The notes below the pieces were generated by a model that had not been told where the DNA came from, ran no database searches, and worked only from the letters and a program-made list of their open reading frames with translations. Shown one piece after another: positions 3,213 to 56,407 of a stretch of DNA of 64,000 bases. This DNA comes from an uncultured Lachnospiraceae bacterium (GTDB lineage Bacteria > Bacillota > Clostridia > Lachnospirales > Lachnospiraceae): contig CACZBF010000002.1 in NCBI GenBank assembly GCA_902779355.1, positions 197,633 to 261,632 on the forward strand. Direction: 5' to 3'. The first letter of the stretch is position 1, and each line of letters opens with the position of its first letter. Position numbers and translations under genes: made by a program.

Positions 3213-3278
3213 GATGTTGCTCCTATCTTTTTCTATATCATTTCTCTATACTCGCAGATTTCGCTATGCTTGCTGTGC

Positions 3279-3363
3279 GCAGACACGCTTTCGCTCTGAG
3301 CTGCTTGCTCACGTTGCTAAACTCGCTTCGCTCGCTAAGCAACGAGCAGCAGCTAAGGTCTGC
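3279..3363. repeat. 85-bp cruciform element between hypF and hypC
   Basis: An inverted-repeat structure fills the middle of the hypF-hypC gap. The outer 6-bp arms are GCAGAC (3279-3284) and GTCTGC (3358-3363). Inside is a longer bulged stem of about 15 bp pairing the GCTGC...GTTGCT side with AGCAACGAGCAGCAGC. Small hairpins close on GAA or GAAA loops. There is no T-tract, so it is not an ordinary terminator. It shares the 10-mer GCTTCGCTCG with the palindromic insert inside hemZ. It may be a processing or stability element in the mRNA, or a dispersed palindromic repeat. Confidence 0.6.
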
Positions 3364-3397
3364 TTACAGGAAGCACAGCGCAATCTGCTCGGATGTA

Positions 3398-37349: not shown

Positions 37350-37419
37350 GTCGTACCACGCCGGTCGTACTACGTGTGCCGTGCTATGTGTGTCGTACTA
37401 CGTCTGTCGTACTATGTCT
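37350..37419. repeat. Five 14-bp tandem repeats upstream of padR
   Basis: Five units begin at 37350, 37364, 37378, 37392 and 37406, with consensus GTCGTACTACGTGT. The core CGTACTACG is itself a near palindrome. The array starts just after the predicted padR transcription start, so it would lie in the 5' leader as DNA and RNA. It is best explained as a multi-site operator, most simply for PadR. Together with the promoters it fills the 301-bp gap between padR and the GH3 gene. Confidence 0.75.
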
Positions 37420-54904: not shown

Positions 54905-56407
54905 TCAGAGATTCTTCTCTGTTCCGAACAGTTCTCTCTTCCGTTCGATCATTTCCCCGATCCGGCTGATGTATTGGTCGAGGTCCTTGACCGTATCACA
55001 GCGTTCGATTCTGCCCTCGAGCTTCGCTCGAGGGAGCCCGTCGCGGCTTTGAGCGACTTCAGAGGAACTCGTAAGAGTTCCTTCCTCTCTGCCGTCAGGA
55101 AACACTCTTTTCGACACCGTTCCTGCCCCGCAGGCGGCGATGTCTCCCACTTCCTCCATCATCAGGATGTTGTAAATGCCGGCCTTGCCCGGAGCGGCGT
55201 AACCCACATTCTCGAAGTTGCCGGCCATATTCTTCTGGCGGTAGAGGTAGTATGGCGTCCGCCCGATCTCGCGGCAAACCGATTCCGCGATCTCCATCTG
55301 CTCTGACGTGTTTTCCATCTGATACTGCCGGTAACTGTCCATCTCAATCTTCAGGCGCGAGGCGCGTTTGATCGCAAGGGAATGCACCGTGACATCGTCC
55401 GGTGAAAGCGCGCGAATCCGCTCCATTGTATGTGAGACGTCCTCCGTGTTTTCTCCGGGGAGCCCGAGGATGAGATCCATGTTGATGTTGGAAAAGCCCA
55501 TCCGGCGCGCAAGCGCATAAGCCTCTTCCGTCTGCGCAACGGTATGATTGCGGCCGATCAGGTCAAGCGTCTTCTGAGAAAACGTCTGCGGATTCACGGA
55601 GATCCGATCCACCCCGTATGCCCGCAAAACCGCAAGCTTTTCTTCCGTGATGCTGTCCGGACGCCCGGCCTCCACGGTAAATTCCCGGCAGGACGATAAA
55701 TCAAATGTCGATTTTATTTTTGAGATAACCTGTTCTAATTCCACAGGTTCCAGAGCTGTCGGTGTGCCGCCGCCGAGATAGACCGTGTAAAGTTTTCGAC
55801 CGGCAAAAAGCGCCGCCGTTTCGGTCAATTCCCGGAAAAGCGCCGAGAGATACGGTGCAATTTGATCATGGCACTTTTTGACAGGATATGAGGCGAACGA
55901 ACAATAAAGGCAGGTGGTCGGGCAAAAAGGTATCCCGACATAAAGGCTGTAACCCGCGGTATAATCGGCTTCCTGCAAAATACTGCGTTCCCGCTCCGCA
56001 ATCTCGATCGCGAGACGCGCCTTTTTCTCGGAGCAGAAGTAGGTTTGGCGCATGTGGTCTGAGATCTCGGCATGCGTTCTCCCCTCAGCCAGCATCATCA
56101 TAGGGATACGCACCGGCCGGATCCCGGTCAGCGACCCCCATGGCAGTTCCCGCCCGGTCTCCGCCACCAGTCTCTGATACAATCCCTGCTTCAGCGCGTC
56201 CTTGGTCTGCTTCCGATCCGGAAGGCCTTGCGGGATCACCACATCCATCGTACGGGACACCTCGGCAGCGCTTTCCGTCTGCCGCTGCCGCACAGGAGCT
56301 TCCTTTCCCGGCGGTAAAACAATGACATCCTCCGCCGGATAAAACGCCTTCACCAGCGAGTGGATGTCATAAGTAAAATCATCTTGATCTGTTCTGACAA
56401 TGATCAT
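54905..56407 (-). CDS. hemZ: Coproporphyrinogen dehydrogenase-like radical SAM protein HemZ
   Basis: About 500 residues. The radical SAM motif is CPTTCLYC (Cys162, 166, 169), followed by VYLGGGTPTALEP and GLPGENTEDVSHTM. The N-terminal ~150 residues are the HemZ-specific extension. Near residues 440-465 the protein carries a 26-residue insertion encoded by a palindromic DNA element; removing it restores the usual VFPDGRIERC run. The frame remains open, so the protein is probably made. The start ATG lies 60 codons inside a longer open frame. It is in an operon with the MBL hydrolase and relA. Confidence 0.93.
   Translation of the reverse strand: MIIVRTDQDDFTYDIHSLVKAFYPAEDVIVLPPGKEAPVRQRQTESAAEVSRTMDVVIPQGLPDRKQTKDALKQGLYQRLVAETGRELPWGSLTGIRPVRIPMMMLAEGRTHAEISDHMRQTYFCSEKKARLAIEIAERERSILQEADYTAGYSLYVGIPFCPTTCLYCSFASYPVKKCHDQIAPYLSALFRELTETAALFAGRKLYTVYLGGGTPTALEPVELEQVISKIKSTFDLSSCREFTVEAGRPDSITEEKLAVLRAYGVDRISVNPQTFSQKTLDLIGRNHTVAQTEEAYALARRMGFSNINMDLILGLPGENTEDVSHTMERIRALSPDDVTVHSLAIKRASRLKIEMDSYRQYQMENTSEQMEIAESVCREIGRTPYYLYRQKNMAGNFENVGYAAPGKAGIYNILMMEEVGDIAACGAGTVSKRVFPDGREEGTLTSSSEVAQSRDGLPRAKLEGRIERCDTVKDLDQYISRIGEMIERKRELFGTEKNL
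55010..55093. repeat. 78-bp palindromic element inserted in-frame in hemZ
   Basis: The 6-bp sequence TCTGCC occurs at both ends (55010-55015 and 55088-55093), spaced exactly 78 bp. Between are three stem-loops: a 9-bp stem at 55014-55034 (CCCTCGAGC-TTC-GCTCGAGGG), GTCGC/GCGAC around 55040-55056, and a 7-bp stem at 55064-55081 (GGAACTC-GTAA-GAGTTCC). The length is a multiple of three. It looks like a short mobile palindromic element with a duplicated end. Confidence 0.75.

Follow-up and report, generated by a model that had tools for sequence, protein, structure and literature searches.

Palindromic elements that lie within protein-coding sequences have so far been described mainly from Rickettsia and Wolbachia, which are obligate intracellular bacteria. 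The palindromic elements of these genera are short repeats that interrupt many unrelated conserved genes in frame and also occur in intergenic regions, and the encoded peptides tend to be located at the protein surface (PMC2229807, PMC3767692, PMC10969869). Rickettsia palindromic elements (RPEs) form long stem-loops of 105–146 bp and carry terminal inverted repeats (PMC2229807), and the identity of their repeats is reported to be lost (PMC6649704). Some copies of REP/REPIN sequences are also present inside genes (PMC3733652), and the MITEs ERIC/RU-1, RU-2, and RU-3 are non-autonomous and intergenic, with occasional in-frame intragenic copies (PMC2229807, PMC2759123). In nematomorph mitochondrial coding palindromes and mitochondrial double-hairpin elements, the hairpins are kept perfect, and template switching was proposed as a way of correcting the arms (PMC6649704). 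A 2024 review of prokaryotic MITEs considered a similar process outside Rickettsia conceivable (PMC10969869). A literature search on Lachnospiraceae, Firmicutes, and Clostridi, with most subscription papers outside its coverage, found no description of a three-hairpin family such as that reported here.

The window analyzed is a 64,000-nucleotide stretch of the genome of an uncultured Lachnospiraceae bacterium (the home genome, G000). An initial annotation, made from the letters alone, described three stem-loops in a 78-bp segment inside hemZ and compared them to RPEs. The features of this locus are as follows:

54905–56407, minus strand: hemZ, oxygen-independent coproporphyrinogen dehydrogenase, 500 aa including the insert (NCBIfam TIGR03994, 590 bits).
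55010–55087, minus strand: three-hairpin palindromic element of 78 bp, in frame in hemZ, encoding EEGTLTSSSEVAQSRDGLPRAKLEGR; empty site in orthologues, covariance-model hits.
55063–55082, minus strand: hairpin 1 of the element, AGGAACTC-TTAC-GAGTTCCT; inverted repeat, DNA fold, covarying stem.
55040–55057, minus strand: hairpin 2 of the element, GTCGC-TCAAAGCC-GCGAC; seen in the sequence and DNA fold, with a near-invariant loop TCAAAGCC (91–100% conserved).
55014–55034, minus strand: hairpin 3 of the element, CCCTCGAGC-GAA-GCTCGAGGG; inverted repeat, DNA fold.
55010–55015, minus strand: 3′ end of the element, GGCAGA (family consensus GCAGA); same end in many copies.
55088–55093, minus strand: HemZ Gly-Arg codons GGC AGA, the ancestral target sequence at the junction; orthologues have GGACGG or GGGAGA.

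The three stem-loops are perfect inverted repeats (55014–55022/55026–55034, 55040–55044/55053–55057, and 55063–55070/55075–55082) located between two TCTGCC copies. Folding of the element as single-stranded DNA gave exactly these three hairpins (z = −4.1), and none of 200 shuffled sequences was as good. The TCTGCC framing noticed initially is present at 55010–55015 and 55088–55093. The left-hand copy is the 3′ end of the element and the right-hand copy corresponds to the HemZ Gly-Arg codons, so the pair does not represent a general target-site duplication. On the coding strand, the site reads ..GAC GGCAGA, followed by GAGGAAGGAACTCTTACGAGTTCCTCTGAAGTCGCTCAAAGCCGCGACGGGCTCCCTCGAGCGAAGCTCGAGGGCAGA and then ATCGAACGC...

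The 26 residues EEGTLTSSSEVAQSRDGLPRAKLEGR are located between VFPDGR and IERC of HemZ, and their interruption of this C-terminal run with the frame kept, as originally proposed, was borne out by comparison with relatives. In an alignment of about 50 HemZ homologues, taken from the same family and from public genomes, every sequence covering the site passes directly from VFPDGR to IERC, or the equivalent, and lacks the 26 residues. Insert-free proteins include those of Lachnospiraceae RGIG2561 (L008, 86.6% identity) and RGIG3553 (L009, 62.6%). The orthologues of two genus-mates, L090 (G002) and L091 (G001), have the same identities as L008 and L009 and appear to come from the same two genomes. 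Nucleotide alignment with orthologues defined an in-frame insertion of 78 bp and a clean empty site. Rather than distant homologues sharing these residues and a lack of other copies, relatives devoid of the residues and many further copies were found, in agreement with the RPE-like interpretation. The HemZ insert is thus confirmed as a real in-frame insertion and is one copy of a palindrome family.

The AlphaFold model of HemZ, based on 32 HemZ sequences, had a mean pLDDT of 87.6. Since residues 441–463 had pLDDT below 50 and lie between the strands 431–436 and 466–471, the insert is predicted to form a disordered loop at a turn between two C-terminal beta strands. The enzyme probably works despite the insert.

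BLAST search of the home genome with the hemZ insert revealed one more partial copy, whose second stem differs in sequence and is still paired. A covariance model built from these two copies (R1) identified two further home-genome copies on the same contig, including G000:C1:60316–60393. A three-hairpin model (R2), built from the two in-frame home-genome copies, matched 9 of the 397 genomes of the family, including a weak match in G272 (26 bits) that was left out of the copy count. The hemZ element was matched at 55010–55085 (G000:C2:252642–252717) with 100.7 bits by R2, a self-inclusive score, as this copy is one of the two behind the model, and with 92.5 bits by R3, a model built from 29 copies. 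Whole-genome searches with R3 found 36 copies in G079, 27 in G207, 22 in G312, 20 in G321, 5 in G000, 3 in G288, 2 in G156, and 1 in G251, and none in three genus-mates of the home genome. In total, 106 copies were fetched and aligned (G079, 31; G207, 26; G321, 19; G312, 19; G000, 5; G288, 3; G156, 2; G251, 1), and the family therefore comprises at least 106 copies of about 78 nt each. Most of them were found by models built from earlier copies, so the alignments lean towards structure, and related copies are not independent.

The eight carrier genomes each represent a different genus and all belong to one Lachnospiraceae-type family of the Bacillota, with a patchy distribution. Four of them (G079, G207, G321, and G312) contain 19–36 copies each. 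Among 392 genomes searched at the order level, positives occurred only within the same family. Weak model hits of 16–20 bits in G001, G002, G007, G034, G040, and G053 were excluded as copies. A 22-bp match in G025 was rejected, being located in a coding gene without the three-hairpin structure. Seven pattern hits in viral contigs scored at most 13 bits with the model and were not copies, and no plasmid match to the element was found.

The home genome contains two copies in frame in genes and three between genes. Two home-genome copies (L059 1398–1549 and L069 1424–1548) have hairpins 1 and 2 followed by a different 3′ module with the common hairpin GGCTGCAAGAAAACRTCC..GGAYGTTTGCAGCC. The copy at 74.2 kb of G000:C1 is flanked by two matches to the Rfam GA-cis RNA family (RF02987) at L069 595–682 and 2909–3009 (about 73.3 and 75.6 kb; 41 and 49 bits). 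In the genus-mate G003, a degenerate remnant detected by R1 (L060 1501–1555), which retains an intact hairpin 1 but has a decayed hairpin 2, lies upstream of a chemotaxis-receptor-like gene.

From 5′ to 3′, the element consists of GGA or GGT, hairpin 1 (8–9 bp, loop often TNAC), TGA, hairpin 2 (5 bp, loop TCAAAGCC), GGGCTC, hairpin 3 (8–9 bp), and GCAGA, and its typical length is 72–84 bp. The segments TGA, TCAAAGCC, and GGCT are 89–100% conserved, while many stem positions reach only 40–66%. Stem identity averaged 73% within genomes and 51% between them; for the core linkers, these values were 95% and 94%. Of 2,032 stem cells, 95.6% were paired, and with 589 double changes, substitutions almost always affected both sides at once. 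The covariation score was 0.715 versus 0.205 in shuffles and at most 0.175 in slid structures. Without the two edge pairs, stem cells comprised 1,784 Watson-Crick, 20 G-U, and 32 mismatched pairs. G-U pairs made up 1.1% of the element cells versus 7.1% in 21 local tRNAs, a comparison limited to the G-U share because the bracket notation used may hide tRNA mismatches. The stems thus accept G-U pairs no more readily than mismatches, pointing to the DNA and not the RNA level. Single-stranded DNA folds of three copies gave three hairpins each (z = −4.1, −5.2, and −3.6), and the RNA fold of the hemZ element with flanks had a z of only −2.2 and a rearranged predicted structure.

Tandem copies are present at L170, L175, L191, L201, L217, L240, and L247. 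Palindromes of different kinds are nested at the same point of loop 2, after TCAAAGC, in G207 (L215 4134–4260, L217, and L230) and G079 (L196–L198). Most copies of G207 (L216, L218–L225, and L228) form part of a longer conserved repeat, ..CTTGCGCTAAG.. / ..CGCAGCGGACGCTAAGCT...

The second in-frame copy of the home genome, G000:C1:60316–60393, is located in an ORF of 297 aa that has no Pfam match and adjoins a FlxA-like gene. The G003 orthologue of this ORF is exactly 81 bp shorter at the element, with flanking DNA identities of 89% and 80%, and the G011 homologue also lacks the element, which makes this a clean empty site as well. Insert lengths of 78 bp in hemZ and 81 bp in this gene indicate that two to three junction bases vary.

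Fourteen copies of G079 were scored inside ORFs, 12 in the sense and 2 in the antisense orientation; we think that the two antisense ORFs are spurious. The sense copies, in about 12 genes, are all read in phase 2 and add peptides such as KVTSPDGEVLKSLKAGTGSPDLKSGAGK. Their hosts encode a HydF-type maturase, a precorrin-3B C17-methyltransferase (CbiH-type), a YlqF-type GTPase, a transglutaminase-like protein, a YkuD transpeptidase, DUF6311, two acyltransferases, and an acyl-CoA ligase (AMP-ligase) with two tandem copies. The predicted insert peptides of HydF or YlqF are such as KVTSPDGEVLKSLK, and both proteins have extra residues at the element site relative to solved structures. The CbiH-type insertion is less clear because the solved structure has its own loop there. 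The copies in G079 usually have a single open sense phase, yet one or two antisense frames are also open, so the sense orientation inside genes is not forced by stop codons.

Between genes, 38 copies were codirectional with both neighbours versus 15 antisense (p = 0.002, with heuristic ORF calling). Many copies are situated downstream of a stop codon and ahead of the next gene start, and the neighbouring genes differ widely. In G312 (L235–L238 and L246–L248), the 3′ stem and tail CGGAGGA of the element directly precede ATG and could serve as a Shine-Dalgarno sequence. The flanks are A-rich and have no strict target motif. Across 90 non-redundant copies, direct repeats were not consistent at any combination of k-mer and offset, and a target-site duplication was rejected on this basis. 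Terminal inverted repeats were not found, the element ends (GGA.. and ..GCAGA) being non-complementary. Among the genes checked beside clustered copies, no transposase was found; all were ordinary (MBOAT, AlgX-like, amylase, AsnC regulator, glutamate dehydrogenase, ThiC, ThiD-like, ABC transporter, and flagellin).

Copies are dispersed, have been amplified within genomes, have clean empty sites at two positions, are inserted in frame in the sense orientation, and differ by paired stem changes with almost no G-U. We consider it likely that they constitute a family of non-autonomous mobile palindromic DNA elements acting at the DNA level. The element may move as folded single-stranded DNA, with cutting and joining performed in trans by a putative enzyme of the host or of another mobile element. 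Such an enzyme would read the linkers and the hairpin shape instead of the stem sequence. Perfect arms could be preserved through selection each time the element moves or through arm-to-arm copying (template switching). Copies would survive where harm is small, either in the sense orientation between operon genes or inside genes, read in the only phase free of stops and placed in a loop that tolerates them; HemZ would be an example of the latter. A more specific version, in which the element is recognized by its loops and linkers only and both arms are rewritten together by template copying around single-strand moves, so that stems diverge fast yet stay perfect, is offered tentatively; orientation would then be tied to transcription, and a fixed disordered peptide would be systematically added to host proteins.

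A normal variable loop of HemZ, palindromic by chance, would fit the position of the site at a C-terminal turn that tolerates change. However, an insertion of exactly 78 bp compared with relatives, together with more than 100 homologous copies in unrelated genes and intergenic DNA, refutes this explanation, which has practically no chance of being correct. A structured RNA element, cis-regulatory or involved in mRNA processing, that also lands in coding regions is unlikely. Its loops would bind a protein or ligand and its stems would be selected for RNA folding, which is in line with the preferred sense orientation, the many copies placed after a stop codon and before the following start, the CGGAGGA of G312 at a Shine-Dalgarno position, and possible AGCC/GGCT pairing between the loop TCAAAGCC and the linker GGGCTC in 98% of cells. 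However, this pairing is invariant and thus without covariation, G-U pairs are no commoner than mismatches (20 versus 32; 7% in tRNAs), copies occur in frame within unrelated genes, and adjacent genes differ widely. No Rfam family matched the element at the gathering score, and a relaxed threshold produced only a chance-level snoRNA match on one copy.

We give still less credence to REP/REPIN-like elements moved by a RAYT (Y1 HUH transposase). Like REP/REPIN sequences with their RAYTs, the Lachnospiraceae copies are small dispersed hairpins that form clusters, lack target-site duplications and terminal inverted repeats, and presumably have a single-stranded DNA substrate, and Y1_Tnp genes are present in the carriers G000, G079, G321, G312, and G251. 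On the other hand, they contain three hairpins, conserve the linkers and not the stems, and have no evident GTAG or CGTC tag. Y1_Tnp had no match in G207 (27 copies, 100% complete), G288 (3 copies, 100% complete), or G156, whereas some genomes in which no copies were detected, for example G006 and G002, do carry one. RAYT is therefore not the general answer, as it was not found in the two complete carriers.

Returning to mobile DNA elements as the preferred reading, the Lachnospiraceae element resembles RPEs in that it interrupts conserved protein genes without loss of frame (hemZ, the 297-aa ORF, and about 12 genes of G079) and is dispersed both between and within genes. The differences are its length of about 78 bp, three separate hairpins, the lack of terminal inverted repeats, the different phylum, nearly perfect stems that vary by paired changes, and the preferred sense orientation. 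It behaves like RPEs but is not classified as one, because the descriptions of RPEs set it apart by size, architecture, and phylum. Similarly to ERIC/RU MITEs, the element is non-autonomous and occurs between genes and in frame within them, but terminal inverted repeats and consistent target-site duplication are missing. Hairpins kept perfect are shared with the nematomorph and other mitochondrial palindromes. The latter differ in that the nematomorph ones arise within conserved coding sequence, while the Lachnospiraceae element resides on bacterial chromosomes and has three hairpins, defined linkers, and discrete insertion. The perfection of arms whose sequence changes fits selection at each move or arm-to-arm copying (PMC6649704). 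Single-stranded DNA hairpins and the absence of duplication would be compatible with IS200/IS605-type transposition, which is also characterized by a fixed short target; the flanks here are A-rich without a strict target motif.

Coding palindromes do not need a reduced intracellular genome, since gut Lachnospiraceae carry such a family. Because the family has more than 100 copies, empty sites that are clean, and a clear code in which linkers are constant, stems swap, and G-U is nearly absent, it allows tests of how coding palindromes work and what they cost at the protein level. The family would also account for odd insertions of 26–27 residues in annotated proteins.

Elsewhere in the window, a long imperfect inverted repeat at 3240–3380, between genes named hypF and hypC in the initial annotation, contains the 10-mer GCTTCGCTCG and is outside the three-hairpin family. 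A kinship of this cruciform with the hemZ element was not supported: with one mismatch allowed, 9 occurrences of the 10-mer were found versus 8.1 expected by chance, and no copy of the element was found at hypF-hypC. An array of 14-bp direct repeats, GTCGTACTACGTGT-like, is located at 37350–37419.
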